Shown in pieces: positions 16,041 through 40,527 of a stretch of DNA of 64,000 bases (position 1 is the stretch's first letter; the number at the start of each line of letters is the position of its first letter). A model generated the notes under the pieces. It saw nothing but the letters and a program-made list of their open reading frames with translations. It made no database searches and had not been told where the DNA came from. Source of the DNA: Rapana venosa (taxonomy: Eukaryota; Mollusca; Gastropoda; Neogastropoda; Muricidae); the NCBI GenBank assembly GCA_028751875.1, contig CM054134.1, forward strand, positions 75,263,738 to 75,327,737. Direction: 5' to 3'. The position numbers and the translations under genes are program-made.

Positions 16041-16899
16041 CCACTTTTGAATCCGGTTGTTATGTAAAGTACCAATTTCCCCAAAGGACCATTGAAGAAC
16101 CACGAAAAATTGATTTGTATCCATTCTTGCATAAATTAATTCTAGAATTTAATCTCAAATACAATATCTTTCCTTATGTTTCCCAGCCAGTGCTTTAGTG
16201 CCATCAAATACTGCTTTTGAGTCAACGCAAAAAAGAATGTGGTGAATGTCAAGCGCAGTATTTGACAAAAAATTCAAGGCCATAAGGATTGCAAACAATT
16301 CACACACGTAAAAATAGAAAAATGTTTTCCTAAATGAAATGATTTTTGTACTTTAAAAACAGGAATCACAAATGCTGCCCCCTTTCTTCCTGATTCCAGA
16401 AACAGATCCATCAGTATACACTTTTAAATGATTAGAATAATTACTTTCAGTGTGACTTTTTCATCAACGGTGAGCAAATTTTGATCTTCATTCTTTTTGA
16501 CATCCGTGTAGTCAGTGTCAAAGTTAGCCGATATATGTTCCCAAGGAGGCATTTGAGGAACCATCGAAAAATTGGAATTGTTGTTAGGTCAATACAATGT
16601 CTTTCATTAATGAATCTGTATAAGTTTTAATTGGCAGGAGAAATGAAACATTGCTTGCTCGTTTTGGATAGTCAGTGTCTGATTCATAAAAAAAATCATC
16701 TTTTACTGAATTTGGAACAGAGAGACTTCGAATCACATACTTTGATACGGCCAATCGTTCTTTGTTAGAAGAGAGAGTAAATGTGCTTCTTTATAAGTAT
16801 TATTTATGTTAGCATGGACTGGAACACCAAGTGCTATTTTTATGGCTTTACTGTCTAAACTTTGTAATTTTTTAAGTAGGTAATCTGCAGCAGAAATAT

Positions 16900-16903
<4 letters not shown>
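16041..16903 (-). mobile_element. RNase H-bearing LINE 3' end, minus, truncated by gap
   Basis: Third copy of the element at 39083 and 62975. On minus it encodes the end of a reverse transcriptase (IALGVPVHANI), then a linker and the start of RNase H with YTDGS, FTCEL and FCVDSK. It keeps one frame at the YESDTDYPK junction (about 16665-16685), where both plus copies carry an extra A. From about 16041 to 16150 it diverges sharply, probably from poor quality beside the gap. Confidence 0.75.

Positions 16904-16953
<50 letters not shown>
16904..16953. repeat. (GT)n microsatellite at LINE 5' junction
   Basis: A pure GT run. It is the CA tract of the plus orientation, into which the RNase H LINE inserted. 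Confidence 0.9.
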
Positions 16954-16956
<3 letters not shown>

Positions 16957-17244
16957 AAAAAACTGTTCTTATGAATGTATTAACATTTTTTTCTACAAAA
17001 GCCTGATGGATAGTTTTTTTTATAAAAACTCTTCTTCAAAAGCTTGATGGATACGTTTTGTTTTTGTTTGTTTTTTAAAATGATGGATAGTTATTATTAT
17101 TAACAAAACAACAACTCTTCTACAAAAGCCCGATTGTTAGATTCTTTCAGAACTCTTCCACAAAAGCCTCATAGATGGGCGTTGAACTCTTCTGTGACAA
17201 AAAGCCTGGTGAATAGTGGGTTTTATTAATTTTATTTTAGTTGT
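16954..17244 (-). repeat. Minisatellite-like flank
   Basis: Reverse-oriented units with TCTACAAAAGCCTGATGG and related forms. This is the segment lying between the tail element and the CA tract in plus monomers (38761-39020). Confidence 0.7.
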
Positions 17245-17428
17245 TGTTTTTTTAAACCAGTACGCCAGCTGCAGACATAAGAACTCAGGCAGGCCAAAGA
17301 GTGAAGCTGGGCCTGCCCAACTTGCCCATCACTATTCCCGTGGTTTTAAGGGACGAAGTGATCATCTTCTAAGCGCTCTGATTTGTATTTGCAAGATAAA
17401 GCGCTCTATAAATTCCATATATTATTAC

Positions 17429-17478
<50 letters not shown>

Positions 17479-17782
17479 GTAGTAGTAGTAGTAGTAGTTG
17501 TATATTAGTAGTAAGTAAATAATCATAGTAATAGAAATACAACAACAACAAACAACACACAACAACAACAACACACAACTACTACTACTACTAACTACTA
17601 CTACTACTACTCTACTACTACTACTACAACTACTACTACACATACTACTACTACTACACTAATCACTGCTTCCTATCGCACTCTCAATGCTAGCTGCTGC
17701 TCTGAAGCTTTCTTGCTGCTGCTACTGCTGCTCTTGCTGCTGCTGCTACTGCTACTGCTACTGCTGCTACTACTACTACATC
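17245..17782 (+). repeat. Tail-bearing element and (TTA)n...(TAC)n tract
   Basis: The tail element (17245-17404) has CGCCAGCTGCAGACATAAGA and ends in AAGCGCTCTATAAATTCCAT, a common non-LTR 3' tail, followed by (ATT)n at 17424-17476. TAG, then TAC and CTG units run to 17782. The tyrosine-rich open frame here is only (TAT)n. Confidence 0.7.
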
Positions 17783-18102
17783 GAACTTATATAGCGCCAT
17801 ATCTTGCAAAAAAAAAAAATCAAAGCGCTTTCACTCATCCCACTCAATTCACATGCAGCCAGTTACAATGAAAAGTTTTTACAAATTCAAATGTATACAC
17901 ACACACGCACGCACGCACGCACACACACGCACACACACGCACACACATGCACACACATAAAGGTTGTACACTCCGGCAGGGTGATGGGGTTTTGGCTGTT
18001 GAGGGGCAGGGACAAAAATGAGATGGAACAAGATGGAAATCTTAGGTTTGAAATAAATGTGTCTTGAGGTAGGATTTAAAAACGTCATAAGAAGGCTTTG
18101 AA
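17783..18102 (-). mobile_element. CR1/L2-like LINE 3' end, minus, distal part
   Basis: Includes the tail GCGCCATATCTTGC on minus, a CA tract at 17900-17958 and CACTCCGGCAGGGTGATGGG. Interrupted by SINE-2. Confidence 0.65.
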
Positions 18103-18446
18103 ACAAAATTCTTTTATATCGAGGGTAATGGAAAAAGCACTTATGTGCTTTTTTTACCTCCAGTCCCCGTGTGTATGCGGTTTTGTAAATTTTGTCATCT
18201 GCTTCCCCTGGCACACAATGGCCTACTCTGGCAAAAAGCGGAACAGGATTTAACGTGTGCGCAAGATATTCTGCGTGCGTTCGCACACGGGACCTCGGTT
18301 TATAGTCTCATCCGAAGGACTTTTGGGGGAGAGTGGAGTCGGCACTGATGTTAACTCCAGGGGAAAATATCCCCTTGAACTGGAATCGAACCCGGGTTGT
18401 CAGATAGCGAGCGCAATGTTCTAACCACTAGGCTATCCCGTCTCGG
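18103..18446 (-). mobile_element. SINE-2, minus
   Basis: Mirror copy of 37761-38098. B box and A box are seen on minus at about 18380-18435, with the core AACCGAGGTCCCGTGTGCG. The flanking AAAGCC repeat is preserved. Confidence 0.75.
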
Positions 18447-18569
18447 CTTTTGGCGAAGGGAGAGAGGGAGGCCATTCCAGATATGTTTAGTTTTTGAAGT
18501 ATGTTCGTTGTCCTTGTCAGTTACATCGCTGATCTCCACCTCCCCCAAGTCATCCACTGCAGCCACGTT
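18447..18569 (-). mobile_element. CR1/L2-like LINE 3' end, minus, coding part
   Basis: Minus-strand reading gives KHIWNGLPLSLRQKP, the C-terminal block typical of CR1/L2-group ORF2, joined directly to the SINE-2 sequence. Confidence 0.65.
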
Positions 18570-18822
18570 TTGTTATTTATTTATATTTATTTATACCACT
18601 TTAAGTCACGGCAGATTTCTCTACGTGAAATTCGGGCTGCTCTTCCCGAGGAGAGCGCGTCGCCACAAGAGCAGCGCCACCCTTTTTTGTGTGTTTTTCC
18701 TGTCTGCAACTGTATTTGTTTCCCTATCAGAGTGGCTTTTTTTCTACAAAATTTCGCCAGGGATAACTCTTTTGTTGCCGTGGGTTCTTTTACGTGCGTT
18801 AAATAATTATGTGTAACACACG

Positions 18823-18853
<31 letters not shown>

Positions 18854-19123
18854 TAGCGCCCAGACCACCACTCATGGTCTAATGTAGGCCATTGTGTGCC
18901 GGGGGAACGGATGAAAAAATTTACAAAACCGGGGACTGGATGTATAAAAGCACATAAGTGCTTATTCCACTATCCTCGATATAAAAGAATAAATAAAATT
19001 AAATAAAATAAAATAATGGATGGGGGAAAGTTTCGGGTCCAATCGGGATTCGAACCACCGCACACTTCCGACTGGGACTTTTCGCTTTCTAGACAGGCGC
19101 GGTACCTCTAGACCACCGATCCA
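18570..19123 (-). mobile_element. SINE-1, minus, with nested insertion
   Basis: Well-preserved head (19020-19123) and core (18823-18860) on minus. The element is split by a SINE-2 fragment at 18885-19013. Confidence 0.8.
18885..19013 (+). mobile_element. SINE-2 3' fragment nested in SINE-1
   Basis: A 5'-truncated SINE-2 (GTAGGCCATTGTGTGCCGGG to CCTCGATATAAAAG plus an A-rich tail) lies opposite to its host. TAATG at 18880-18884 and 19014-19018 is the target duplication. Confidence 0.8.
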
Positions 19124-19422
19124 CCTTGTTACCTCAAGGTGTCAATCAAAGGTGGGACAGGACTGGAGACTGTGGGTCAGTTGTCCTGACCAATACTACA
19201 CAGGCACTCACTGGTGTCCACTTGGAATAGGAGAGAACTCTGAACTCTGAACCCTGAACCCTGAACTCTGAAATGGTTTAAATATACATCGGCCTTAGGC
19301 CACAATTCACTTTGAGGGGCGAAAATGGAAGGATGCAAAAGAATGAAATGTAACTTCTTGTAAAGCTTTGGTAAGACTTCGGCATGACACTATGGCATGT
19401 ACCCCAAACTGTTCACCTTCGG
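19124..19422 (-). other. Spacer S, reversed
   Basis: No gene. Reverse complement of 36786-37077, nearly identical. Confidence 0.75.
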
Positions 19423-19640
19423 ATGAGACTATAAACCGAGGCCCCGTGTGCGAACGCATGCAGAACTTCTTGCCCACACGTTAAATCCTGTTCCGCTGTT
19501 CGAAAGAGTAGGTCATTGTGTGCCGGTGGGAACAGATGACAAAATTTAAAAAAACCGCATACACACATATAAAAAAAGTCATCTGAGCACTTTGATTTGT
19601 TGCTTTACAAGATTCAGCACTATATAAATTCCATACATTA
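19423..19640 (+). mobile_element. Truncated SINE-2 relative with GCGCTATATAAATTCC tail
   Basis: Starts at CTTCGGATGAGACTATAAAC, so it lacks the tRNA head, and ends CACTATATAAATTCCATACA followed by (TTA)n. The tail differs from that of full SINE-2, so this is a distinct subfamily. It is absent from the first three monomers. Confidence 0.7.
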
Positions 19641-20027
19641 TTATTATTATTATTATTATTATTATGTATTATGTATGTATGTATGTATGTATGTATGTAT
19701 GTATGTATGTATGTATGTATGTATGTATGTATGTATGTATGTATTCCAAAATCATTACTAAATAAAGTAGATCAAGAATTCAAACAAAACAGCAAAAAAT
19801 CTCAGTTCACCTAAACTGCTCCCCAGGATACCACAAAAAAGATAATAGGCCTGCGAACAAAGTTAGGAGAGAGCAAGAGCGAGAGCGAGGGAGAGAGAGG
19901 CCTTACAAAAAGGTATCCACTTATCAGACTGTAAAATTAATGATTTTTTGGTTGGTTTTTATCAATTTAAAGTAAATGTCCTAGTCTCAAGTCTTCATGG
20001 TAGTGTAAAACAAAGAAGAAAAAGTAG
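19641..20027 (-). repeat. (GTAT)n tract and spacer R, reversed
   Basis: GTAT units at 19673-19743, GA-rich remnant of the CT tract at 19866-19905, then spacer. No gene. Confidence 0.75.
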
Positions 20028-20099
20028 TGGAGATGCCGGGGATCGAACCCGGGGCCTTTCACATGCGAAGCGAACGCTCTACCACTGAGCTACATCCCC
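20028..20099 (-). tRNA. tRNA-Ala (CGC), pair B
   Basis: Perfect 72-mer on minus with anticodon loop TTCGCAT. In this reversed monomer it is the equivalent of the plus-strand CGC gene at 13691. A short A-run context at 20011-20023 gives only weak T runs downstream on minus. Confidence 0.9.
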
Positions 20100-20280
20100 T
20101 TCTGTTAGAGATGGACAAAATAAAACTACTCCTATGTCTCTGGATAAACGGGTATCCTAATGAAGGGGTGTGGTTGGATAGCCCACTCTTCTTATGGTGG
20201 CAACTAGTGTAAACTGAACATAATGAAGGAAGGGGCAGTGGAAAGGCTTATGACCCATCCTGCCGAACTGGTCTACAGGT

Positions 20281-20352
20281 GGGGATGTAGCTCAGTGGTA
20301 GAGCGTTCGCTTTGCATGTGAAAGGCCCCGGGTTCGATCCCCGGCATCTCCA
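20281..20352 (+). tRNA. tRNA-Ala (TGC), pair B
   Basis: Perfect 72-mer with anticodon loop TTTGCAT and G3-U70. A long T run (20355-20365) follows, a good Pol III stop. Divergent from 20028 across a 181-bp spacer. Confidence 0.92.
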
Positions 20353-21065
20353 CAATTTTTTTTTTTGGTTCTTTTTATCGCGAGTTTCAAATCTCACTGG
20401 TGTTTATTCTTCTCCTGGAGATGGTACTGTCCCAGTCTTCATTCGATTCGTTTGCTTAGGAGCTGGACATGACAGACACTGGTAATTACTGTCTGTCTGA
20501 ACCGTGGCTTTGCATGGAAGCCCCTGGTTTCGATCTGTTTTGTCATCCTCAGTGATCAACTGGAATTATTACTTTTCGTTAAATGAGTGGTTTGAAATCT
20601 CAGCTGTGTCTTCTTCTTCTTCTCAGGTGGGGATATTGTACTGTCCCAGTCTTCATTCAAACCACCTGAAGATTGTGCACAGGAGCCTACTGTATGCTGC
20701 ACATGCTGCTGTCATCCATACCACTGGTCATGGGTTGTAACTCTCTTACAAAGCCTGATGGATTAAAATAATACTCTAATGTGTTCCTTATTTTTTTAAT
20801 TACTTTTTTTGTAACATTGAAATAGTAAGTTAAACAGAATGTCTGGCATGTATGGTACTTTGTCGTTTGATGTAAAACATTCTTAGGTTGACAGTGTTGG
20901 ATATTTGAAAAGATTAGGAGGTAGTGATTCTGAACTTTGAAGTGAATGTTATTGAAGTTGAAGAAACCAAAGGAGGGGACAGCCTTGATATGGCCTTTGT
21001 GGTTGGTGGGGCTGAAAACAACAGGATAGGGAATGAAATGAAGCCCTAGGGGGGTCAAAGGTTTG
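20353..21065 (-). other. Spacer Q, reversed, clean copy
   Basis: No gene. It contains two copies of the GACTGGGACAGTA motif on minus and the Q landmarks AACTTTGAAGTGAATG and GGGTCAAAGG next to the SINE insertion. Confidence 0.7.
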
Positions 21066-21118
21066 GGCCCGAAACTTTTCACACATCCATTAGACCATGA
21101 GTGGTGGTCTGGGCGCTA

Positions 21119-21149
<31 letters not shown>

Positions 21150-21384
21150 CGTGTATTACACAAAATTATTCAGCGCATGTAAAAGAACCCACGTCAACAA
21201 GAGAGTTGTCCGTGGCAAAATTCTTAGAAAAAAGCCACTCTGATAGGGAAACAAATACAGTTGCAGACAAAAACACACAAAAAGGGTGGCGCTGCTCTTG
21301 TGGCGACGTGCTCTCCTCTGGGAGAGCAGCCCGAATTTCATGCAGAGAAATCTCGTGACTTTAGTGGTTTAAATAATAATTAGG
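21066..21384 (+). mobile_element. Truncated SINE-1 in spacer Q
   Basis: Begins GGGCCCGAAACTTTTCACAC, just past the tRNA head, and runs through core TTTCGGATGAGACGATAAAC to an A/T tail. In the plus monomer it is inserted in reverse. A short ACCTT-like repeat may be the target duplication. Empty sites exist at about 3750, 9265 and 42630. Confidence 0.75.
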
Positions 21385-21552
21385 TGGGACATGGGTCAGA
21401 CTTGGAGTCTGTGGGTCAGTTGGGTCCATAGCCCAGCGCTACACAGGCTCTCTCTGAGTGAAAAAAAAACAAAATGGAAAAAAAACGAAAAAGAAGTTGA
21501 AAAAGGTTCGAAAAAATCTCATAGTAGTTGCCATGGAAGGAAAAAAAAATAA
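21385..21552 (-). other. Spacer Q remainder
   Basis: GACTTGGAGTCTGTGGGTCA and an A-rich stretch leading to the tRNA. No gene. Confidence 0.6.
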
Positions 21553-21627
21553 TGGAGATGCCGGGGATCGAACCCGGGGCCTTTCACATGCAACCAGGCG
21601 AACGCTCTACCACTGAGCTACTTCCCC
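21553..21627 (-). pseudogene. tRNA-Ala-like, pair A, anticodon-arm insertion
   Basis: All arms match the consensus except for a 3-nt change at CAACCAGGCG, which enlarges the anticodon region next to TGC. CTTCCCC replaces CATCCCC at the 5' end. Confidence 0.7.
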
Positions 21628-21791
21628 ATCTGACTGATATTGACAGCGAAACTACTCGTACTTCTTATGGTATAAAACGGGTATTCTTTATCCCCCTACA
21701 TAAACCCCCCCCCAACATTAGCGGCTGATGTAAACTGAGCATAATGAAGAAAGTGTCAGGTTGATTCAGCTTGCCGAAGAACTTGACAAGT

Positions 21792-21863
21792 GGGGATGTA
21801 GCTCAGTCGGTTAGAGCGGTCGCTTTTGCATAGTGAAGGCCCGGTTCGATCCCTGGCGTTCCA
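21792..21863 (+). pseudogene. tRNA-Ala-like (TGC), pair A, degraded
   Basis: The acceptor start GGGGATGTAGCTCAG is intact. The D loop has an insertion (GTCGGTTAG), the anticodon loop gains a T and the T arm is CCGGTTCGATCCCTGG. Confidence 0.65.
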
Positions 21864-22399
21864 CATTTTTTTTCCTCCTCAAAAATAAACTTGAATATCA
21901 GATCCCCTGTGGGTATGCCGGAGGCTGGCTATATCAATAGCTTTCCCCACTTCTGGTAATGAGGGGTTAGGAATTCCCTTTTTCTGTTCCTCCTTTTGTT
22001 TCTGCTGGGTCCCTTATTCTTTCCTGCCACCTCCTTCTTGTCTAGTTTCTGCCTTCTTGTCCATTCTCCTCTCTTTTTCAGAAAGACTAAAACCCATCCA
22101 CCAGGTCTTGTAAGAGAAACACATCCACGCCCAAATCGGATGTGCTGTGCCTGATTTACAAGGCAGCGCAATGCATTTTCGCTGGTGTGATAGACAACAG
22201 TAGGCTAGTTGTTGTCTGAGTGTTGAGGAAGAAGAAGAAAAACAAATACAAAATCTCAGCGGAGTCATCTTCTCCTCCAGTATGGGGGTCTGGTGTTTAC
22301 CTAGTCTTCATTCAAACCTCAATCTGCAGACTATGCACAGGAACTTCTTGTATGTATGCTCGACTTGCTCCTGTCATCCATCCATACCACGGGTCATAG
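21864..22399 (-). other. Spacer P, reversed
   Basis: No gene. On minus it has the purine-rich GACAAGAAGGAGGTGGCAGG stretch and the GCATTGCGCTGCCTTG landmark. Confidence 0.7.
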
Positions 22400-23499
22400 T
22401 TAGTGCAACTCTTCTAAAAAAGCTTGATGAATGTGTTTTTACTCTTCAGTGACAAAAGACTGGTGGATGGGTTTGCAAAAAACCAACAATTCTTCTGCTA
22501 AAGCCTAACGGATGGGTGTAAAGAAAATCCAACAATTCTTCTACTAAAGCCTAACGAATGCGTGTAAAGAAAACCCAACAATTCTTCTGCTAAAGGCTAA
22601 TGGATGGGTTTACAACAATCTCTTCTACTAAAGTCTGATGCAGGCTTTAAAAAAATGACAACAAACCTTCTACAAAAGCCTAGTATGGCTTTAACAAAAC
22701 CCCACCTTTTCTACAGAAGTTGATGGAGGGGTTTGAACTCTTCTAGAAAAGTCTGATGGATAAGTTAAAAAAAATCTTCTACAAAAGTCTGTGAGTTTAA
22801 ATAAGAACCCAAATTTATTTCTACAGGAGCCAGGTAGATATGTTTAAAAACTCGTCTACAAAACTCTGTTGGGTAGGATTTTAAAATCTCTTCTACAAAT
22901 CTGGTGGATAGGATTTTAAATTTCTTCTACAAAACCATGATGGATAGGATTTTAAAACCTCTTCTACAAAACCTGTGGATCGGATTTTAAAAATCTCTTC
23001 TACAAAATCCTGTGGATAGATTAAACAAACAACAACTATTTACGAAATCTGGTGGATAGATTTTAATATCTCTTCTACAAAACCCTGATAGATTAGGATT
23101 TTAAAATCTCTTTACCATAACCCTGATGGATAGGATTTTAAAATCTCTTCTCAAAACCCTGATGGTAGATTTAAAAAACCATCTCTTTACTACAAATTCC
23201 TGGTGGATAGGTTTTTATAATCTCTTTCTTCAAAATCCTGGTGGATAGGATTTTAAAATATCTTTACAAAATTCTGGTGGATAGGATTTTAAATTTTCTA
23301 CAAAAAGTGTATGGTGGATTGGATTTTAAAATATTCTTCTACAAAGTCTTGGTGGATGGATTTAAAGAACAACACATCTTGGGACAAAAAATGATGGTTA
23401 GGCTTTTAAAAATATCTTCTACAAAACTGCGATGGGGATGGTTTTTAAAAAACACACCCAAAACAACAGTCTTCTTCAAAAGCATTTGATGTATGTGTG

Positions 23500-23540
<41 letters not shown>

Positions 23541-23814
23541 TTAATAACTGTCTTATGATTGTATTAACATTTTTTTCTACAAAAGCCTGATGGTTAGTTT
23601 TAAAAAAAAACTCTTCTTCAAAAGCTTTGATGGATACGTTTTGTTTTTGTTTGTTTTTTTAAAATGATGGATAGTTATTATTATTAACAATATCAAAAAG
23701 CTCTTCTTCAAAGACCGATGTTAGAGTTTTCAACTCTTCCACAAAGATCATAGTTGGGCGCTTGAAATCTTCTGTGATACAATAGCCTGGTGAATAGTGG
23801 GTTTTTATTAATTT
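22400..23814 (-). repeat. 37-bp minisatellite, reversed, with GT tract
   Basis: Around 30 units with CTACAAAA..CCTGATGGATAGG and GATTTTAAAATC. The GT microsatellite at 23493-23540 is an empty LINE site. Confidence 0.85.
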
Positions 23815-24545
23815 TTGGTTTTTAAACCAGTACGCCAGTGCAGACATAAGACCCCAGACAGGCCAAAGAGGGAAGCTGGGCCTGCCCAACTTGACCATTA
23901 CTATTCCCGTGGTTGTAAGGGACATGTGATCATCTTCTAAGCGCTCTGATTTGTATTTGCAGTTAAAGCGCTTTAAATTTTCATATATTAATAATTATAT
24001 TAATACTAATACTAATATTATTATTATTATTATTTTTATTATTACTATTATTTGTTTATTATATATTATATTTATATCATCATCATCATTCATCATCTTC
24101 ATCATCATCTTCATCATCACACATCATCATATCATCATCATCATCATCAATAATCATATCATCATCATCATCTTCATCATATCTCATCATCATCTTCATA
24201 ATCTTCATCATTATTATTATTATTATTCATTATTATTATTATCTATTTGTAGTAGTAGTAGTCGATTAGTACTACTATACTATCTTACTACACTATACTA
24301 CTACTACTACTACTATCTATACTACTAATATACTACTATACTACTACTACTACTACTCTACTACTATACTAACTATACTACTACAACATTAACAACATCA
24401 ACAACAAACAACTACAACAACACAACAAACAACTTTATACTACTACTATATACTACTACTAACCTACTACTACTAATACTTTCTACTACTAATATACTAC
24501 TTACTATACTACTATACTATATAACTATTCTACTACTACTTGGCA
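23815..24545 (+). repeat. Tail-bearing element and (TTA)/(CAT)/(TAC)n tract
   Basis: Tail element 23815-23984 (CAGTACGCCAGTGCAGACAT, AAGCGCT near its end), then mixed trinucleotides: TTA, ATC and TAC in that order. Confidence 0.7.
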
Positions 24546-24677
24546 ATTTACAATAGCGCCATATCTTGCAAAACACAAATCAAAGCCATTTCATTTATCC
24601 CACCATTCACATGCAGTACAGTACAATTAAAAGTTTTTACAAATTCAAATGCATACATACACACATTTAAGCACGCA

Positions 24678-24730
<53 letters not shown>

Positions 24731-25100
24731 CACGCGCGCGCGCGCGCACTCCCACACACACCACACCCACCACCACACACTACACAACACAAAACAACAC
24801 ACACTAAAACAAGCACACACTACACACACTCCAACATACGTTTTACATTCGGCAGGGTGATGGGGTTTGGGCTGTTGAGGGCTGAGCAATAATGAAGATG
24901 GGCAAGGGAGGGGATGAATCTATGTTGAAATAAATGTGTCTTGAGGCCGGATTTAAAAGTGTTATAAGGAGGCTTTTGGCGAAGGGAGAGAGGGAGGTCA
25001 TTCCAGATATGTTTTGTTTGTTTTGTTCTTGAAGTATGTTTGTTGTCTGCCTCAGTGACATCGTGATTAACCTCCCCAAGTTCAAGCCACTGCAGCACGT
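24546..25100 (-). mobile_element. CR1/L2-like LINE 3' end, minus, uninterrupted
   Basis: Best readable protein end of this family. On minus, 24820-25098 gives HIWNDLPLSLRQKPPYNTFK followed by SGLKTHLFQ. WNxLP..LR and the FK-x-LK-x-FLF-like motif are characteristic of the ORF2 C-terminus in CR1/L2-group LINEs. The 3' UTR contains a CA/CG tract (24665-24835) and the tail GCGCCATATCTTGC. The copy is 5'-truncated to about 550 bp. Confidence 0.7.
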
Positions 25101-25522
25101 TTGGTTTTTTATATTTATTTTTTTATACCACTTTATGTCACGGGCAGATTTATCGGCGTGAAAATTCGGGCTTGCTTTCCCGGGGAGAGCGTGTGGCTTC
25201 AGAGCAGCGCACCACTACTTTTTTTCTTTTTCCTGTCTGCAACTGATGTGTTTCCCTATCAGATGGTTTTTTTAGAATATTTTGCCTAAGGACAACTCTC
25301 TTGTTGCTGGGTTCTTTTACGTGCGTTAAAAATATTATGTGTAACACAAGGGACCTCGGTTTATCGGACTCATCCGATAGACAAGAGCCCAGACCACCCA
25401 CCAATGGCTATGGATGGGGGAAAAGTTTGGGTCCAAACGGGATTCGAACAACCGCACACTATCGAATGGGACTTTCGCTGTCTAGACAGGCGGTTAACTC
25501 TCAACCCCAGACCACATCCAAC
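25101..25522 (-). mobile_element. SINE-1, minus, no nested insertion
   Basis: Noisy but complete from the ATTTATTTTTTTATACC tail to the head at about 25430-25510. The target site used by the nested insert is empty. Confidence 0.7.
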
Positions 25523-25825
25523 CTTTGGTTACCTCAAGGTGTATTCAAAGGTGGATGAACAGGACTGGAGACCGTGGGTCAGTTGTCCTGACCAATACTA
25601 CTCAGGCACTCACTGGTGTCCTCTTGGTATTGGAGAGAACTCTGAACTCTGAACCCTGTACCCTGAACTTAAATGGTTTAAATATACATCGGCCTTAGGC
25701 CACAATTCACTTTGTGGGGGCGAAATGGAAGGATGCAAAAGAAGAAATATAAACTCTTGTAAAGCTTGGGTAAGAACTTCAGCATGACACTATAGGATGT
25801 TCCCCAAAAATGTTCACCTTCGATG
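25523..25825 (-). other. Spacer S, reversed
   Basis: No gene. Same landmarks as 19124-19422 with small indels. Confidence 0.65.
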
Positions 25826-30465: not shown

Positions 30466-30744
30466 ACTTTTGGGGTACACCCTTAGTGTTGCTAAAGTTT
30501 CCCCCAAGTTTTACAAGAAGTTATATTTCATTTTTTTGAACCCTTCCCATTTTCGCCCCCAAAGTGAATTTGGGGGCCTAGGCATGTATTTTTAAAAACC
30601 TTTTCAGAGTTCGGGGTTCGGGTTCAGAGTTAAATTTCTTCCTTTTCCCAAGGGACACCAGTGAGGCCTGTGTAGTATTGGTCAGGAAAAACTGCCCCCG
30701 GTTTCCCCGTCCTGTCCCCTTGATTGAACTTAAAGGTAAAAAAG
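30466..30744 (+). other. Spacer S, degraded
   Basis: No gene. AAAGTGAATTTGGGGGCC and CCGTCCTGTCCCC landmarks remain. Confidence 0.6.
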
Positions 30745-31145
30745 GTGGATCGGTTTGGTTAGAGGTAACGCCCCTGTTAAAAAGCGAAAAGTCCCGTCGG
30801 AAGTGTCGGTGGTTCGAATCCTTTTGGCCCCCAAAATTTCCCCCCCATCCATAACCCATGTGTGGTGGTCTGGGCTTTTGTTTTTGGAGGTCGAAAAAAC
30901 CGAGGTCCCGTGTGTTAACTAATTTTTAACGCAGTAAAAAAAACCCCGCAACAAGAAGTTGTCCGGGAAAAAATTTTTTCTAGAAAAAACCCTTGTGGGG
31001 GAAAAAAATCGTTGAGCGGAAAAAGAAAAAAAAGTGGGTGGCGTGCTTTGAACCACACGCTCCCCCCGGGAAAGAGGCAGCCCAAATTTCCGCGAAAAAT
31101 CTGCCGTGATTAAAGGGGTTTAAATAAATTAAATATAAATAACAA
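30745..31145 (+). mobile_element. SINE-1, degraded
   Basis: AAAGCGAAAAGTCCCGTCGG and GGTTCGAATCC (B box) are kept. The core is reduced to AACCGAGGTCCCGTGTGTT. Confidence 0.6.
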
Positions 31146-31682
31146 AACGTGGCTGCAGTGGTGCTTGGGGGAGGGGGTCGCGATGTCACTGAGGCAGCAA
31201 CAACATACTTCAAGAACAAAACAAAAAAAATTTTCGGAATGCCCTCCTTTCCCTTCGAAAAAAGCTCCTTTAACACTTTTAAACCGGGCCTCAAGACACA
31301 TTTTTTTAAATTTAGATTCTTCCCTTTTGGTCCACCCTAAATTTTTTGTCTTGCCCTCAACAGCCAAAACCCATCCCCCTGCCGGGAATGTAAAACGTTT
31401 GGTTTTGTGTGTTTTGTTGTGTGTGTGTTGTGTGGTGTGTGTGTGTGGTGTGTGTGTGTGTGTGTGTTTTTGTGTGTGTGTTGTGTGCGCGCGCGCGGTG
31501 TGGTGTGGTGTGTGTGTGTGTGTGTGTGTGTGCGGGGTGCGTGCGTGCGTGGTGGCGATGTGTTGATGTATGCTTTTGAATTTGTAAAAACTTTTAATTT
31601 TTACTGACTGATGTGATGGGGGATGAATGAAAAGGGGTTTTTATTTGTGTTTTGCAAAATTGGCGTATTGTAAATTCCATGT
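31146..31682 (+). mobile_element. CR1/L2-like LINE 3' end
   Basis: Fragments of the C-terminal frame, then a GT/GC tract at 31397-31560 and the tail TTGGCGTATTGTAAATTCC. Confidence 0.6.
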
Positions 31683-32364
31683 AGTGTATAGTAGTGTAGT
31701 AGTGTAGAGTTGTAGTATAGTAGTAGTAGTGTAGTAGGTAGTAGTTGTGTAGTAGTAGTTGTTTAGTAGTAGTAGTGTTGTAGTTGTTGTTGTTGTTTGT
31801 TGTTGTTTTGTTTTTTGTTTTTGTTAATGTTGTGTGTAGTAGTAGTAGTGTGAGTAGTTAAAATGTAGTAGTAGTGTTAGTTAGTGTAGTTAGTAGTAGT
31901 AGTGTGTAGTAGTGTGTAAGTAGGTTAGTTTTAGTTAGTAGTACTACTACTACTCTACTACTATAAAATAATAAAATAATGTAAAATAATTTAAAAATTT
32001 ATGATATTTTGATGATGATGATGTGATGATGATGATGTGATGATGAGTGTGATGATGATGAGGGTGTGTGATGATGATGAGGATGATGATGATGATGTGA
32101 TGGATGATGTGTTTATGATTATTAAATTTTTTTTAATAAAAATAATAATAGTAATAATAATAAAAATAATAAATTTTAAAATTAGTATTAGTATTATAAT
32201 ATTATTAATTATGAAATTTTTAGAGGCTTTTTCTTGCAATACAAATCGAGGTTGAAGATGATCACATGTCCCCTTACACCCGGAAAAGTAAGGTCAAATT
32301 GGGGGGCCCGCTTCCCCCTTTGGCCCGTCTGGGGGTTTTTGTTGCAGTGGGTTTGGTTTTAAAA
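31683..32364. repeat. (TAG)n/(ATG)n/(TAA)n tract and facing tail element
   Basis: TAG-rich 31683-31945, TAC 31940-31960, ATG 32010-32110, TAA 32140-32210. A degraded tail element on minus follows to 32364. Confidence 0.65.
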
Positions 32365-33745
32365 AAAAATTAAAAAAAACCCCCTATTCACCAGGTTTTG
32401 TACAGAAGAGTTCAAAGCCCCTTATGGGCTTTTGTGGAAAAGGCTGAAAAAATTAACAATCGGGTTTTTTTGAAGAGCTGTTGTTTTTTTATAAAAATAC
32501 TATCCATCATTTTAAAAAAAAACAAAAAAAAAAAAAGTTTTTCCATCAAGCTTTTGAAGAAGAGGTTTTTTTAAAAATATCCCCTCGGGGTTTTTTAGAA
32601 AAAAAAAGTTAATACTTATAAGAAAAGTTTTTTTAAACACCCACACCACAACACAACCACACAACAACACCACATTCATCGGCTTTTGAAGAAAAAAAAC
32701 TTGTTGGTTTTGGGGTGTTTTTTAGAAAAAACCATCCATCGCAGTTTTGTAGAGATATTTTAAAAGCCTATCCATCTGTTTTTTGTCCCAAAATTGTTTT
32801 TTTTAAAACCCTTTCCCCCAAGCTTTGTAGAAGAGTTTTAAAAACCTATCCACCGACTTTTGTTTGAAGAGATTTTTAAATCCTATCACCGAATTTGTAG
32901 AAGAGATTTTTTAAAAAAACCCTTTCCCCGGTTTTGTAGAAGAGATTTTAAACCCTATCCCGGATTTTGTTGTGAGTTGGTTTTTTTAATCCCATCCTTA
33001 GGGTTTTTTGAAGAGATTTTTAAAATCCTTCCATCAGGGTTTTGTAGAAGGATTTTAAAATCCTATCTTGGGTTTTGTGAAAGAGATTTTAAAATCTATC
33101 CACAGGTTTTGTGAAGAGTTGTTTTTTTTAACCCATCCCCCGGTTTTTTAGAAGGATTTTTAATTTCCCTTCCCTCAGGGTTTTTTAGAAGAGGTTTTAA
33201 AATCCATCCATCGGGGTTTTTTTAGAAGAAAATTTTTAAAAACCCATCCACCCGGGTTTTTTAGAAGAGATTTTTAAAAACCCACCCCTCAGGTTTTGTA
33301 GACGAGTTTTTTAAACATATTACCTGGTCTGTAGAATAAATTTGGGGTTTCTTATTTAATTTCAACTTTTTTAGAAGTTTTTTTTAACTTATCATAGACT
33401 TTTCTAGAAAAGTTCAAACCCCCCATCAAACTTTTGTAGAAAAAGGGGGGGTTTTTTTAAAACCCTCAGGGTTTTGTAGAAGGTTTGTTGTATTTTTTTT
33501 TAAACCCGCATGATTTAGTAGAGAGATTGTTGTAAAAACCCATCCATTAGCCTTTAGCAGAAGAATTGTTGGGTTTTCTTTATTACACGCATTCGTTAGG
33601 CTTTAGTAGAAGAATGTTGGATTTTCTTTACACCCATCCGTTAGGCTTTGCAGAAGAATTGTTGTTTTTTGCAAACCAATCACCAGTAGTCTTTTGTCAA
33701 TGAAGAGTAAAATAACCACTTCATCAAGGCTTTTTTAGAAGTGTT
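32365..33745 (+). repeat. 37-bp minisatellite
   Basis: Noisy but clearly periodic units with TTTTGTAGAAGAGATTTTAA. The CA site at 32637-32680 is empty of LINE sequence. Confidence 0.75.
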
Positions 33746-34292
33746 GCACTAATATGACCCCGGGGTATGGTGGATGACAGGAGAATGTCGAGCATACATA
33801 CAAGAAGTTCCTGTGCATAGTCTTGCTGATTGAGGTTGGTATGAAGATAGGTAAACACCAGACCCCATATGGAGGAGAAGATGACTCGCTGAGATTTTGT
33901 ATTTGTTTTTTCTTATTTTCCTAAACACTCAGACAAACAACTGCCATACTGTTGTCCTATCACACCAGCGAAAATGCATTGCGCTGCCTTGTAAATCAGG
34001 CCAGCACTTCGATTTGGGCGTGGTGTGTCTTCTCTTACAAAGGACCTGGTGGGATGGGTTTTAGTCTTTCTGAAAAAGAGGCAGGAGAATGGACTATGGG
34101 AAGGCAGAAACTAGACAAGAAGGAGGTGGCAGGGAAGAAAAGGGACAAGGCAGAAACAAAGAGGAGGGACAGAAAAGAGGGTAATTCCTAGCCCTCATTC
34201 CAGAGGTGGGGAGGAAGCTATTGATATTGCCAGGCCTCCGGATACCACAGAGGATCTGATATTCAGTTAGTTTTTGAGGATGGAAAAAATAT
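33746..34292 (+). other. Spacer P
   Basis: No gene. CACACCAGCGAAAATGCATT at 33961-33980, then the purine-rich stretch. Confidence 0.65.
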
Positions 34293-34366
34293 GTGGAAGA
34301 CGCCAGGGATCGATCACGGGGCCTTTCACATGCAAAGCGATAGCCTCTACACTGAGCTAAATCCCC
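34293..34366 (-). pseudogene. tRNA-Ala-like (TGC), pair A
   Basis: TGC loop intact. Insertions near the anticodon stem (GCGATAGCC) and a CTAAATCCCC 5' end. Confidence 0.6.
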
Positions 34367-34526
34367 ACTTGTAAGTTCATTCGGCAGAGTGATGATGAAG
34401 CCTGTCACTTTCTTCATTATGCTCAAGTTTACATACACCGCTTAAGTTGGTTATGTAAGGGGTTTATCAGATACCGTTTATCCAGGAAGTACGAGTGTTT
34501 CGTTCTGTTCAATAATCAGTACAGAT

Positions 34527-34600
34527 GGGGATGTAGCTCAGTGGTAGAGCGTTCGTTTGCATGTGAAAGGCCCCCGGGTGTTCGATCCCCTGGCATCTCA
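34527..34600 (+). pseudogene. tRNA-Ala-like (TGC), pair A
   Basis: The 5' half is perfect to GAGCGTTCG, then a C is lost before TTTGCAT. The T arm has extra bases (CCCCCGGGTGTTCG). Confidence 0.65.
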
Positions 34601-35845
34601 GTATTTTTTTTCCTTGCCATGAGACAGAACTAGGAGTTTTTTTCGAAACATTTTCAACTTCTTTTTCGTTTTTTTCCATTTTGATGATTTTTTTTTCACC
34701 ACGAGTGGAGTGCCGTTGTAGCGTGGTCTATTGGACACCAACTGACCACCAGTCTCCAGTCTGTCCCATGTCCCACCTTATTATTTAATTTTAACCACTT
34801 AAGTCACGTGGATTTCTCTGATGAAATTCGGGTGCTCTCCAGAGGAGAGCACGTCGACACTAGAGCAGCGCCACCTCCTTTTTGTGTGTTTTTTGTCTGC
34901 AATATAACTGTATTTGTTTTCCATATCAGAGTGGTTTTTTCTAAGATTTTGCCTCGGACAACTCTATTGTTGACCGTGGGTTCTTTCATGCGTTTCTGAT
35001 TAATTTTGTGTAATACACGGGAACCTCGGTTTATGTTCTCTCATCCAAAGGACTAGCGCCCCCGACCATCCATCATGGTCTAATGGATTGTGTGAAAATA
35101 GTTTCGGGCACAAACCTTTGACACCCATTTAGTGCTTCTTTCATTCCATATCCGGTTGTTTTCAGCCCACCACCACAATAATGCCATTTCAGGCTGTCCC
35201 TCCTTGGTTTCTTTCAACTTCATAATATTCACTTCAAAGTTCAGATCACTACCTCTAATCTTTTCAAATATCCAACACTGATCAATCCTAAGAATGTTTT
35301 ACATCAAAGACAAAGTACAAATACTTGCATAGACATTCTGTTTAACTTACTATTTCTATGTTACAAAAAAGTTCATTAAAAAAAAAATAAGGAACACATT
35401 AGAGTATTATTTTAATCTCATCAGCTTTGTAAGAGATGTTTACAAACCATGACCATTGGTATGGATGGACAGTGCTGTGCAGCATTCGGTAGGCTCTGTG
35501 CACTATCTTCAGGTGGTTTTGAATGAAAGACTGGGACAGTACAATATCCCCACCTTGAGAAGAAGAACAAGATACAGCTGAGATTTTCATACCACTCATT
35601 TAACGAAAAGTAATTTATTTCAGTTGATCAATGTGGATGACAAAATCAGATCGAACCCAGGGGCTTCCATGCAAAGACAGGGTCGGGTTCAGAAGACAGT
35701 AATTACAGAGTCCTGTCATGTCCAGCTCCTAAGCAAAAGAACAATTTATTACTGAATGAAGACTGGGACAGTACATCTCCAGGAGAAGAATAAACCACTG
35801 GGATTTTAAAACTCGCGATAAAAAGACCCAAACAAAAAAAAGTTG
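34601..35845 (+). other. Spacer Q with truncated SINE-1
   Basis: The insertion spans 34778-35110. The rest is spacer with no gene. Confidence 0.65.
34778..35110 (-). mobile_element. Truncated SINE-1, minus
   Basis: Collinear with 58514-58842, same insertion point after GTCCCACC. Confidence 0.7.
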
Positions 35846-35917
35846 TGGAGAATGCCGGGGACGAACCCGGGGCCTTTCACATGCAATGCGACACGCTTTA
35901 CCACTGAGCTACATCCC
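35846..35917 (-). pseudogene. tRNA-Ala-like (TGC), pair B
   Basis: Right length, but with several changes: GAATGCC in the acceptor, loss of a T in the B box, and GCATTGCATG with altered anticodon stem. Confidence 0.6.
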
Positions 35918-36094
35918 ACCTGTAGTATCAGATTAGGAGGTGGGTTCATAAGTCTGTCCACTGCCCCTTCCCTTCATTATGTTCAGTTTACATATAGTAG
36001 CAACCATAATACCTGGGCGATGAATCCACTCATTTTGGATTACCCGTTTATCAAACCTTAGGAGTAGTTTATCTTTTCGTCCAATATAACAGAT

Positions 36095-36167
36095 GGGGAT
36101 GTAGATCAGTGGTTAGAGCGTTCGCTTCGCATGTGAAAGGCCACGGGTTCGATTCCCCGGATCTCCA
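36095..36167 (+). pseudogene. tRNA-Ala-like (CGC), pair B
   Basis: One insertion in the D loop (GTGGTTAGAGC), A-box change TAGATCAG and GGATCTCCA at the end. T-rich sequence follows. Confidence 0.65.
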
Positions 36168-36544
36168 CTACTTTTTTCTTCTTTGTTTTTTACACTACAA
36201 TGTAAGACTTGAGACTAGGACATTTACTTTAAATTGATTAAAAAACCAACCAAATAGTCATTAATTTTACAGTCTGATAAATGGATACCTTTTTGTAAGG
36301 GCCTATCCCTCGCCTCTCGCTCTTGCTCTCTCCTAACTTTGTGCGCAGGCCTATTATCTATTGTATGGTATCCTGGGGAGCTGTTAGTGTGAACTGAGAT
36401 TTTTAGCTGTTTTGTTTGAATTCTTGATCTGCTTTTTTTTGTAATGACTTTGGGAATAATAAATAAAAACATAAGTACATACATACATAATACATACTTA
36501 CATACAAACATACTTACAGATATACATACATACATACATTCTCA
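36168..36544 (+). repeat. Spacer R and (TACA)n tract
   Basis: Weak CT remnant at 36300-36340 and interrupted TACA units at 36470-36538. No gene. Confidence 0.65.
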
Positions 36545-36785
36545 TATTATAATAATAAGAAGGTGTATGTAATTTATATAGCGCTTGAAATATTGTAAAG
36601 CATCAAATCAAGCGCTCAGATGACTTTTTTTTATATGTGGTATGCGAGTTTTTTTAATTTTGTCATCTGTTACCACGGCACACCAATGGCTACTCTTTCG
36701 AACAGCGGAACAGAATTTAACGTGTGCGCAAGATGTTCTGCATGCGTTCGCACACGGGGCCTCGGTTTATAGTCTCATCCGAAGG
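36545..36785 (-). mobile_element. Truncated SINE-2 relative, minus
   Basis: GTAATTTATATAGCGCTTGA tail to core CTCGGTTTATAGTCTCATCC. Confidence 0.7.
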
Positions 36786-37077
36786 TGAACAGTTTGGGGT
36801 ACATGCCATAGTGTCATGCTGAAGTCTTACCCAAGCTTTACAAGAAGTTATATTTCATTCTTTTGCATCCTTCCATTTTCGCCCCTCAAAGTGAATTGTG
36901 GCCTAAGGCCGATGTATATTTAAACCATTTCAGAGTTCAGGGTTCAGGGTTCAGAGTTCAGAGTTCTCTCCTATTCCAAGTGGACACCAGTGAGTGCCTG
37001 TGTAGTATTGGTCAGGACAACTGACCCACAGTCTCCAGTCCTGTCCCACCTTTGATTGACACCTTGGAGGTAACAAG
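36786..37077 (+). other. Spacer S, clean
   Basis: No gene. Near-identical reverse complement of 19124-19422. Confidence 0.75.
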
Positions 37078-37350
37078 GTGGATCGGTGGTCAAGAGGTAC
37101 CGCGCCTGTCTAGAAAGCGAAAAGTCCCAGTCGGAAGTGTGCGGTGATTCGAATCCCGATTGGACCCGAAACTTTCCCCCATCCATTATTTTATTTTATT
37201 TAATTTTATTTATTCTTTTATATCGAGGATAGTGGAATAAGCACTTATGTGCTTTTTATACATCCAGTCCCCGGGTTTTGTAAATTTTTTCATCCGTTCC
37301 CCCGGCACACAATGGCCTACATTAGACCATGAGTGGTGGTCTGGGCGCTA

Positions 37351-37381
<31 letters not shown>

Positions 37382-37632
37382 CGTGTGTTACACATAATTA
37401 TTTAACGCACGTAAAAGAACCCACGGCAACAAAAGAGTTATCCCTGGCGAAATTTTGTAGAAAAAAAAGCCACTCTGATAGGGAAACAAATACAGTTGCA
37501 GACAGGAAAAACACAAAAAAAAGGGTGGCGCTGCTCTTGTGACGACGCGCTCTCCTCGGGAAGAGCAGCCCGAATTTCACGTAGAGAAATCTGCCGTGAC
37601 TTAAAGTGGTATAAATAAATATAAATAAATAA
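37078..37632 (+). mobile_element. SINE-1 with nested insertion
   Basis: Clean head (37081-37168) and core (37355-37390). It shares the rare GGTACCGCGCCTG variant with the left-arm copy. Confidence 0.8.
37189..37319 (-). mobile_element. SINE-2 3' fragment nested in SINE-1
   Basis: Same fragment as at 18885, flanked by CATTA at 37184-37188 and 37320-37324. Confidence 0.8.
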
Positions 37633-37760
37633 CAAAACGTGGCTGCAGTGGATGACTTGGGGGAGGTAAAGGATCAGCGAGGGTAACTGACAAGGACAAC
37701 GAACAACTTCAAAAACTAAACATTCCTGGAATGGCTCTCCTCTCTCCCTTCGCCAAAAGC
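37633..37760 (+). mobile_element. CR1/L2-like LINE 3' end, first part
   Basis: ACGTGGCTGCAGTGGATGAC to CTTCGCCAAAAGC, then cut by SINE-2. Confidence 0.65.
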
Positions 37761-38098
37761 CGAGGACGGATAGCCTAGTGGTTAGAACATTGCGCTCGCT
37801 ATCTGACAACCGGGTTCGATTCCAGTTCAGGTTATTTTCCCCTGGAGTTAACCATCAGTGCCGACTCCAAACTCTCCCCAAAGCTACGGATGAGACTATA
37901 AACCGAGGTTCCGTTTGCGAACGCACGCAGAATTTTTGCGCCCATGTTTAAATCCTGTCCGCTTTTTCAGAGTAGGCTTGTGTCCAGGGGAAGCAGATGA
38001 CAAAATTTACAAAACCGCATACCCCATCGGGGAACCTTGAGGTAAAAAAAAGCACATAAGTGCTTTTTCCATTACCCTCGATATAAAAGAATTTGTTT
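37761..38098 (+). mobile_element. SINE-2
   Basis: Head 37769-37833 with A box TAGCCTAGTGGTTAG and B box GGTTCGATTCC, core at 37890, end CCTCGATATAAAAG. Confidence 0.75.
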
Positions 38099-38404
38099 CA
38101 AAGCTTCTTAGACGTTTTAATCTACCTCAAGACACATTTATTCAAACCTAAGATTCTCCTCTTGTTCCATATCATTTTTGTCCCTGCCCTCACAGCCAAA
38201 GCCCCATCACATGCCGGAGTGTACAACCTTATGTGTGTGCATGTGTGTGCGTTGTGTGTGCAGTGTGTGTGTAGTCTGTGAGTTGACGTAGTGTGTATAT
38301 ATTAGAATTTGTAAAAACTTTTCATTAGTAACTGGCTTGCATGTGAATAGTGAGTGGTGTTTGGTAAAGCTGTTTGTTTTTTTTTATTTAGCAAGATTAT
38401 GGCG
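38099..38404 (+). mobile_element. CR1/L2-like LINE 3' end, second part
   Basis: AAGCTTCTTAGACGTTTTAA onward. GT tract 38233-38282 and tail to the TAG tract. Confidence 0.65.
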
Positions 38405-38505
38405 TAAAATAAGTTGATGTAGTATAATAAGTAGTAGTATAGTAGTAATAAGTATTAGTTGTTGTTGTTTGTTGTTGTTGTTGTTGTTGTTGAATATTAT
38501 ACTAT

Positions 38506-38537
<32 letters not shown>

Positions 38538-38760
38538 ATAATAATAATAATAATAGTAATAATATATGGAATTTATAGAGCGCTTTATCTTGCAAATACA
38601 AATCAGAGCGCTTAGAAGAAGATGATCACCTCGTCCCTTAAAACCACGGGAATAGTGATGGTCAAGTTGCGCAGGCCCAGCTTCACTCTTTGGCCTGCCT
38701 GAGTTCTTTTGTCTGCAGCTGGCGAACTGGTTTAAAAAAAACAACAACTAAAATAAAATT
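38405..38760. repeat. (TAG)n-(TTG)n-(TAC)n hairpin tract and facing tail element
   Basis: TAG-rich 38405-38458, TTG 38459-38492, TAC then TAA to 38560: complementary TAG and TAC arms around a TTG loop. The tail element on minus (38576-38760) begins GGAATTTATAGAGCGCTTTA. Confidence 0.75.
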
Positions 38761-39047
38761 AATAAAACCCACTATTCACCAGGCTTTTTGTCACAGAAGA
38801 GTTCAACGCCCATCTATGAGGCTTTTGTGGAAGAGTTCTGAAAGAATCTAACAATCGGGCTTTTGTAGAAGAGTTGTTGTTTTGTTAATAATAATAACTA
38901 TCCATCATTTTAAAAAACAAACAAAAACAAAACGTATCCATCAAGCTTTTGAAAGAGTTTTTATAAAAAAAACTATCCATCAGGCTTTTGTAGAAAAAAA
39001 TGTTAATACATTCATAAGAACAGTTTTTTAAACACACACACACACAC

Positions 39048-39082
<35 letters not shown>
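38761..39082 (+). repeat. Minisatellite-like flank and CA tract
   Basis: TTTGTAGAAGAGTTGTTG units, then a CA microsatellite at 39034-39082, which is the LINE insertion site. Confidence 0.75.
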
Positions 39083-39087
<5 letters not shown>

Positions 39088-40412
39088 ATTTTTCTGCTGC
39101 AGATTACCTACTTAAAAAATTACAAAGTTTAGACAGTAAAGCCATAAAAATAGCACTTGGTGTTCCAGTCCATGCTAACATAAATAATACTTATAAAGAA
39201 GCACATTTACTCTCTCTTTCTGAACAAAGAAGATTGGCCGTATCAAAGTATGTGATTCGAAGTCTCTCTGTTCCAAATTCAGTAAAAGATGATTTTTTTT
39301 ATGAATCAAGACACTGACTATCCAAAACGAGCAAGCAATGTTTCATTTCTCCTGCCAATTAAAACTTATACAGATTCATTAATGAAAGACATTGGTATTG
39401 ACCTAACAACAATTCCAATTTTTCCGATGGTTCCTCAAATGCCTCCTTGGGAACATATATCGGCTAACTTTGACACTGACTACACGGATGTCAAAAAGAA
39501 TGAAGATCAAAATTTTCTCACCGTTGATGTAAAAAGTTCACACTGAAAGTAATTATTCTAATCATTTAAAAGTGTGTACTGATGGATCTGTTCTGGAATC
39601 AGGAAGAAATGGGGCAGCATTTGTGATTCCTGTTTTTAAAGTACAAAAATCATTTCATTTAGGAAAACATTTTTCTATTTTTACGTGTGAATTGTTTGCA
39701 ATCCTTATGGCCTTCAATTTTTTGTCAAATACTGCGCTTGACATTCACCACATTCTTTTTTGCGTTGACTCAAAGGCAGTATTGATGGCACTAAAGCACT
39801 GGCCTGGGAACATAAGGAAAGAAATTGTATTTGAGATTAAATTCTTGATACATTGTATTGCAAGCAGATGCATACAAATAACTTTTTGCTGGGTCCCTTC
39901 TCTCTGTGGAATCTATTGGAATGAGTTGGTTGATTCTTTAGCAAAACAAGGTGCCTCGGATTGCAACATTGAAACGTTTGGTTCCAATCTCGCATTGTCC
40001 TCGCATGAAATTAATGCTAAATTGATGAATTGTATACATTCTAAAATGAAGAAAACACACTTTGAAAACATTTCTTGCTCACGGAAAGTAGAAATTTTAA
40101 TATATAAAATGAGGCTAAATGCATGGAACACCAAATATTCTAAAAATATGACATGTTGCTGTTCCCAATCTCTTTCAATCCACCATTTATTGTTTGATTG
40201 CCCAATCCTAACTGACCTGTTTAAAAGGAGAGGAAGAATATTATAAAAAATAGTCCACTGTTCAAGAAGTTTTATATGACTCTCAGCAGTTCATAACATC
40301 AGTTGCTGAGGCTTAATATTTCCCCAGTAAGACGTCTACTGTAGATAGTTGTGAGAATATAAATATACATATAATTATTAGGGAGAGAGAGAGAGAGAGA
40401 GAGAGATGAGGG

Positions 40413-40449
<37 letters not shown>

Positions 40450-40527
40450 GAGAGAGAGAGAGATGTTGGTTTGAATGCGGGTGTGCCTTATCACCAAGTA
40501 GTGAATGGACATTAAACAAAACAAAAC
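39083..40527 (+). mobile_element. RNase H-bearing LINE, 5'-truncated
   Basis: Starts in the reverse-transcriptase thumb region, continues through RNase H and a zinc-knuckle-like tail, then a 3' UTR with a GA microsatellite (40381-40463) and an (AAACA)n tail at about 40513-40527. It sits inside the CA tract. The CA site resumes with ACACACATTCATCAGG, as in empty monomers. RNase H-bearing non-LTR elements belong to the Jockey/I-type lineages. I cannot name the clade. Confidence 0.8.
39100..40246 (+). pseudogene. Reverse transcriptase C-terminus plus RNase H, frameshifted
   Basis: The reading frame begins with KIALGVPVH..EAHLLSL, typical of sequence after the polymerase core. It breaks at about 39306 (extra A) and 39537 (extra T). 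RNase H spans about 39572-39960. Acidic catalytic residues are visible in YTDGS (here CTDGS), FTCEL and FCVDSK, and the late D in NELVD. The WVPTH histidine is replaced (WVPSL). A later C-rich stretch, TCCCSQSLSIHHLLFDCP, is a zinc-knuckle-like end common in these LINEs. Not functional. Confidence 0.75.

Follow-up and report, generated by a model that had tools for sequence, protein, structure and literature searches.

An inverted block at a contig end, rather than a self-copied palindrome, in a one-way tRNA-Ala array of Rapana venosa

The genome assembly of the gastropod Rapana venosa (GCA_028751875.1; 2.28 Gb in 2004 contigs) holds, in a 64,000-nucleotide window at C1:75263738-75327737, two stretches rich in transfer RNA (tRNA) genes that stand as mirror images of each other, and which a first-pass annotation had described as a palindrome with arms of about 12 kb. 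Having read the 230 kb surrounding the window, of which 85 kb is N, we found that these stretches belong to an array of at least about 105 kb, built of 6-12-kb units in which head-to-head tRNA-Ala pairs are combined with retroelement and microsatellite DNA. The 'palindrome' is one block in the orientation of the left arm (F) at a contig end, in an array that otherwise runs one way, in the orientation of the right arm (R). The feature is an inverted unit or a misjoin in a tandem array and not a self-copied palindrome, because the outer parts of its arms are two different units of that array. We infer that the join is false, and lean with modest confidence towards a misjoin or a chimeric read at the contig end having put 16041-28044 in its inverted place. 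Positions are window coordinates throughout, including those that run past the end of the window.

The mirror match is far above chance expectation. In self-BLAST, 16097-28044 is found again, inverted, at 28200-39895, and the modules of the left arm recur in mirrored order and orientation, as had been claimed. The longer inverted match pairs 17747-28044 with 38447-28200 over 10705 columns at 83.2% identity (935 mismatches, 559 gap openings) and a second pairs 16097-17631 with 39895-38412 at 92.5%. A short spacer is thus flanked by two inverted arms in mirrored order, and the proposed extent of 16041-40527 holds up to ~39.9-40.0 kb, but 40.0-40.5 kb is without a left partner since the left arm stops at the 500-N gap at 15541-16040. 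As this arm starts at the first base past the gap, its length is fixed by the contig end. The coordinate sum of matching landmarks, reported as ~56.2 kb but only 55.99 kb for the outermost one, falls there because the microsatellite at 17.42-17.78 kb is longer between its anchors in the left arm (354 bp) than in the right (139 bp). What had been called a palindrome with ~12-kb arms is a mirror arrangement, but the term overstates it: the contig end sets its length, noise masks the identity of the arms, and their outer parts are different array units.

Copies of the arm modules span from ~3 kb to 107.8 kb, and the array may continue past the next gap. The same modules appear again in right-arm orientation at 46.9-63.8 kb and onward, outside the window, to ~107 kb, which makes the right arm a part of a long one-way array rather than the private mirror of the left arm. 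The tRNA pairs of the earlier annotation are tRNA-Ala genes according to ARAGORN and Rfam, but indels are present in 11 of the 14 copies within 16041-40527. There were 55 tRNA-Ala-like copies over the score cut-off, 34 of them inside the window; hits at 18371 and 140924 passed the cut-off but were unlike tRNA-Ala, and were removed by hand. The Rfam tRNA model gave 17 matches in the window, the best at 70.4 bits, and several intact tRNA genes of the same family were found in the repeated units. The head-to-head pairs are of two types, A and B, distinguished by spacer and flanks. Orientation was scored on 24 pairs, which account for 48 of the 55 copies, with the seven unpaired copies left out. 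Twenty of the 24 pairs are R, including the four left of the gap; three are F (at 20.0, 21.6 and 26.4 kb), all between the 500-N gap and the turn of the palindrome, in the left arm; and one, 27972/28201, is a hybrid. BLAST matches of the left arm above 400 bits in the array are likewise all inverted, itself and its own internal repeats aside.

The turn is this hybrid pair, which has the same flank on either side and reads flank a, minus-strand tRNA, 157-bp spacer, plus-strand tRNA, flank a-prime. The second half of the spacer scored 134 against the F spacer and 18 against its reverse (best of 200 shuffles, 27), and the sequence past the plus-strand gene scored 115 against flank a-prime and 22 against flank b. 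With the spacer in F orientation and flank a-prime past the plus-strand gene, the arms have the 72-bp inverted genes as their innermost part, and orientation switches within, or directly after, the plus-strand gene. Such a turn is what would be left by a real inversion of at least one array unit, through recombination between inverted tRNA-Ala genes or through a restarted replication fork making a U-turn between them, an explanation that we regard as a serious contender though not as the probable one. Crossing-over between the outer genes of two pairs, the minus gene of the first and the plus gene of the second, would yield flank a, minus-strand tRNA, F spacer, plus-strand tRNA and flank a-prime, exactly the order seen, with the breakpoint inside a tRNA gene and the spacer oriented as this model predicts. 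Inversion is also consistent with outer arms from different units (16 versus 5 and 2 sites, see below), and the exact placement in homologous tRNA sequence favours it over random chimeras. Template switching at tRNA genes has reportedly been assayed in fission yeast. Forks stall at tRNA genes, which increased template switching in a yeast assay, small inverted repeats permit U-turns (PMC6358216), and inverted repeats in single-stranded DNA give rise to fold-back dimers in budding yeast (PMC10164571).

Against an inversion, the inverted piece abuts a contig end and the assembled sequence does not contain its other breakpoint, whose place would be inside the 500-N gap or past it. No further copy of the junction was found either. 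With 27900-28400 as query, the other matches that start in its left part stop by base 394 among the 40 of 110 candidates scored, one additional match being the same locus in inverted reading. With 28180-28460 as query, long matches start at base 19 or later and the earlier starters end by base 114 among the 40 of 64 candidates scored. The pair at 72265-72565, with a type-B left flank and spacer and a type-A right flank, records an exchange or a deletion at a tRNA gene, whether in the genome or only in the assembly. It may be a second tRNA-gene exchange and so speak for inversion, but it could equally be a misassembly at the tRNA repeat. Should the inversion be real, head-to-head tRNA pairs could tentatively be seen as natural sites of U-turns or inversions in a homogenising array, each pair combining a 72-bp inverted repeat with an RNA polymerase III (Pol III) fork barrier, so that one block flipped between two pairs would create a palindromic junction with arms of at least 12 kb.

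The origin of the arms was examined by comparing the left arm with the right arm (R1) and with the units R3, R5 (85.2-89.6 kb), R5b, R65 and R102. In the outer arm, with the microsatellite left out, the left arm shared 16 variant sites with R5, five with R1 and two with R3, and the 16 sites set left and R5 against R1 and R3 (binomial p = 0.0005 versus equal thirds). Our filter classed 12 of these 16 sites as slip-prone and four as plain, and all five sites of left and R1 as slip-prone. With R102 and R5 in the set, the counts were 21 for left and R5, 4 for left and R1 and 3 for left and R102; with R65 and R3, they were 7 for left and R65, 5 for left and R1 and 1 for left and R3; and with R65 and R102, they were 13, 2 and 1 for left with R65, R1 and R102, respectively. 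Using R3 and R102 without R5, left and R1 had a slight lead but no clear winner emerged (7 with R1, 5 with R3, 4 with R102). A strict count gave 3 sites with R5, 1 with R3 and 0 with R1, too few to stand alone, while a looser count that included the microsatellite gave 16, 5 and 2 for R5, R1 and R3, or 7, 1 and 1 when 2-base clean flanks were applied. The variants shared with R5 and R102 are credible because both copies are noisy, and thus hardly corrected towards clean ones. The microsatellite agrees: in R5 it is long (443 bp) and has a TGC block, as in the left arm, whereas R3 (142 bp) and R102 (123 bp) are short like R1. The outer arms are thus different array units, and there the arms are not closer to each other than to other copies.

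In the inner arm (21.4-28.0 kb) the counts do not separate left, R1 and R3: left and R1 shared 20 sites, left and R3 24, and R1 and R3 18 (summed over five fourth copies, with overlapping sites). Without R3, and with R5b and R65 in the set, left and R1 led clearly (13 sites versus 1 and 2). This last count is what one would expect if both arms were one molecule read twice over the whole length, through a missed adapter, a hairpin-capped fragment or an amplification palindrome. Two clean patches that are near-identical between the arms (16960-17250 and 18560-19010) also fit, as do the lengths of two GTAT microsatellites (109/111 and 116/117 in the left/right arm), and amplification is described as a source of many artificial palindromes in PMC6218980. 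We nevertheless consider such a fold-back of the whole arm very improbable, because the outer arms are set apart by variants present independently in a noisy copy (16 sites with R5 versus 5 with R1) and by 215 bp in the microsatellite whose TGC block is common to the left arm and R5, and because left and R1, once R3 is included, are not in excess over left and R3 or R1 and R3 in the inner arm. For the outer ~5 kb, variants and microsatellite refute it; the arms do not carry the same variants across their whole length. The GTAT lengths decide nothing as a unit marker, since their agreement favours a common source but R3 is nearly as close (116, 114), and the distance across the variable-number tandem repeat (VNTR) is unreliable because its second anchor is itself repeated. 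The earlier warning of an artefact holds, but not in the form of one molecule folded back over the whole arm. A fold-back read near the turn, covering the inner ~7 kb and extended outward with the sequence of another unit, is possible, and the change in quality of the left arm at ~21.3 kb fits it. That change falls close to the point where the variants pass from R5-like to R1/R3-like, which a contig end pieced together from different sources would be expected to show.

The tRNA genes also provided an error yardstick. Indels are absent from 13 of the 55 copies, each with 0-2 substitutions; the other 42 have indels and together account for 158 substitutions, 147 deleted and 138 inserted bases. 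Compared with a clean reference stretch (66.1-67.9 kb), six noisy stretches of the contig 16041-107945 showed 4.4-8.9% substitutions and ~5-11 indel events per 100 columns, mostly of 1-2 bp, with transversions outnumbering transitions (transition-to-transversion ratios 1:1.7 to 1:3.0), versus 0.4-6.9% substitutions and ~1-2 indel events per 100 columns in four clean comparisons. Clean patches (16.1-17.3, 17.7-21.3, 27.7-28.1, 36.5-37.7, 38.7-39.9, parts of 40.7-47.7, 63.0-63.8 and 64.6-68.2 kb, with limits judged by reading the block table) alternate with noisy ones, which make up most of the remaining sequence. Four mostly clean blocks differ between the arms by 0-4% substitutions: none, with 1 gap, in 289 columns (16960-17250), 2, with 3 gaps, in 451 (18560-19010), 28 in 774 (16110-16890) and 24 in 615 (19020-19640). 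The 17% difference between the arms is thus mostly uncorrected long-read error. An old, real palindrome whose arms had diverged by 17% through evolution would give the observed BLAST identity of 82.9-83.2%, but we attach almost no probability to it: the tRNA copies are either indel-free with 0-2 substitutions or indel-bearing, the clean blocks are too close, and the profile is rich in small indels and transversions. It was rejected on this error profile and on the tRNA yardstick.

A false join at the contig end would have arisen from a chimeric or fold-back long read, or from another unit joined back-to-front, with the switch made within the 72-bp inverted repeat of one tRNA pair, in sequence that was never corrected. 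We favour it because the single F block abuts the gap, because the junction falls in sequence left uncorrected and because a second copy of that junction did not turn up among the candidates scored, and we prefer it to inversion because of the contig end, the poor quality and the absence of the second breakpoint from the assembly. A switch to the right-arm flank in noisy sequence is also as expected at single-read depth. Several points weigh against the false join. Neither random ligation chimeras nor template-complement reads would be predicted to place the switch, as here, precisely within homologous tRNA sequence, and an overlap join of long reads would normally need more than 72 bp. The ratio of indels to substitutions is 1.00-1.43 in the noisy stretches and 0.18 (57 substitutions), 0.43 (28), 1.54 (13) and 2.00 (2) in the clean comparisons; since the latter scatter between 0.18 and 2.00 on 2-57 substitutions, this ratio was dropped as a sole test of noise, and the noise argument rests on the absolute rates and the tRNA copies. 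Moreover, the noise is as strong over 47.7-63 kb and much of 77-107 kb, where there is no turn. Nanopore quality falls after an inverted-repeat junction (PMC7229812), but noise was dropped as a marker of the turn because turn-free stretches are as noisy.

Tandem clusters of tRNA genes are known in eukaryotes, and the array belongs to this kind. It resembles them in its repeated units with intact tRNA genes, whose T-rich 3' flanks look, by eye, like Pol III terminators, and differs in its head-to-head tRNA-Ala pairs, its 6-12-kb units with retroelement DNA and its one block assembled in inverted orientation; the titles and abstract openings of the papers listed in library searches showed none on a head-to-head tRNA-Ala array of 6-12-kb units. 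Sex chromosomes carry long palindromes of high identity, which share the mirror arrangement over kilobases, but here homogenisation from arm to arm is not evident and a gap sets the arm length. Artificial palindromes are abundant after amplification (PMC6218980) and resemble the present case in their inverted copy, a known fault of long-read data; unlike in them, the turn here sits in an inverted repeat of tRNA genes that encloses a 157-bp loop, and the outer arms are not the same molecule. Fold-back and U-turn rearrangements in yeasts have, as here, a short inverted repeat at the turn and a loop in one orientation (PMC10164571, PMC6358216), whereas the present turn is known from one assembly only and its outer arms differ. 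That difference makes a flipped existing unit a better fit than a newly made inverted duplication. A false turn would be a warning that palindromes assembled in tandem tRNA arrays may come from errors at contig ends, and that the seeming divergence of arms in such arrays reflects base-calling noise and not age. A true turn would be a natural example, from a large eukaryotic genome, in which inverted tRNA genes fix a rearrangement breakpoint, a mechanism that PMC6358216 and PMC10164571 study in yeasts.

Table 1. Positions of the arms, the turn, the tRNA-Ala pairs and related features in window coordinates
Feature	Position	Strand or orientation	Remarks
Copies of the array in the contig preceding the gap	3261..15473	-	R orientation; 4 tRNA pairs
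500-N scaffold gap	15541..16040	.	From sequence and gap list; next base is the left-arm start
Left arm (F)	16041..28044	+	Only F block among the 24 tested tRNA pairs; mostly clean 16.1-21.3 kb, noisy 21.3-27.7 kb
Microsatellite stretch with TGC-rich block	17420..17780	+	TGC block common to left arm and R5
Divergent tRNA-Ala pair, type A	20028..20352	F	Both intact
Divergent tRNA-Ala pair, type B	21553..21864	F	Indels in both copies
Divergent tRNA-Ala pair, type A	26428..26751	F	Indels in both copies
Intact tRNA-Ala (TGC), first inverted repeat of the turn	27972..28043	-	Rfam 70.4 bits
157-bp spacer of the turn	28044..28200	+	Left-arm orientation to its end; noise starts near 28.1 kb
tRNA-Ala with indels, second inverted repeat of the turn	28201..28274	+	Orientation switch in or just after it
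Right arm (R1)	28200..39895	-	First units of the uniformly oriented array; noisy 28.1-36.5 kb, partly clean 36.5-39.9 kb
Divergent tRNA-Ala pair, type A	29534..29852	R	Indels in both copies
Divergent tRNA-Ala pair, type B	34295..34601	R	Indels in both copies
Divergent tRNA-Ala pair, type A	35846..36167	R	Indels in both copies
R3, further copy of the whole 12-kb composite unit	51437..63787	-	R-oriented

Other features of the array were recorded as well. A type-A pair carries, between its spacer and its plus gene, a ~3.2-kb element resembling a long interspersed nuclear element (LINE), located within 43318-47000, with two open reading frames with RVT_1 and an Exo_endo_phos match below the cut-off. 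A second copy of the ~118-bp flank-plus-tRNA segment adjoins this element, and the short repeat aacagatgg on both sides of the insertion resembles a target-site duplication. RNase_H (PF00075) open frames at 63182-63994 and 39572-40243 lie in the outer ends of two array units, near the 'RNase H LINE' of the earlier annotation. The 37-bp VNTR at 22843-23363 is repeated in the array units, in which its length apparently differs. Four more tRNA-Ala genes, including one head-to-head pair, lie outside the array at C1:76.60-76.62 Mb; there is no array at these comparison loci, and they are uninformative on the turn.

Left of the gap, 498-9110 is either noisier still or truly more diverged, with broken tRNA pairs and ~12-25% substitutions in blocks of 300-400 bases; 3261-4819 has 13.1% substitutions against the clean reference. 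The tRNAs at 13458 and 13691 are nevertheless intact. Finally, a run of ~52 bases, mostly C, at 56607-56658 beside a VNTR looks like a fault of base-calling or assembly.

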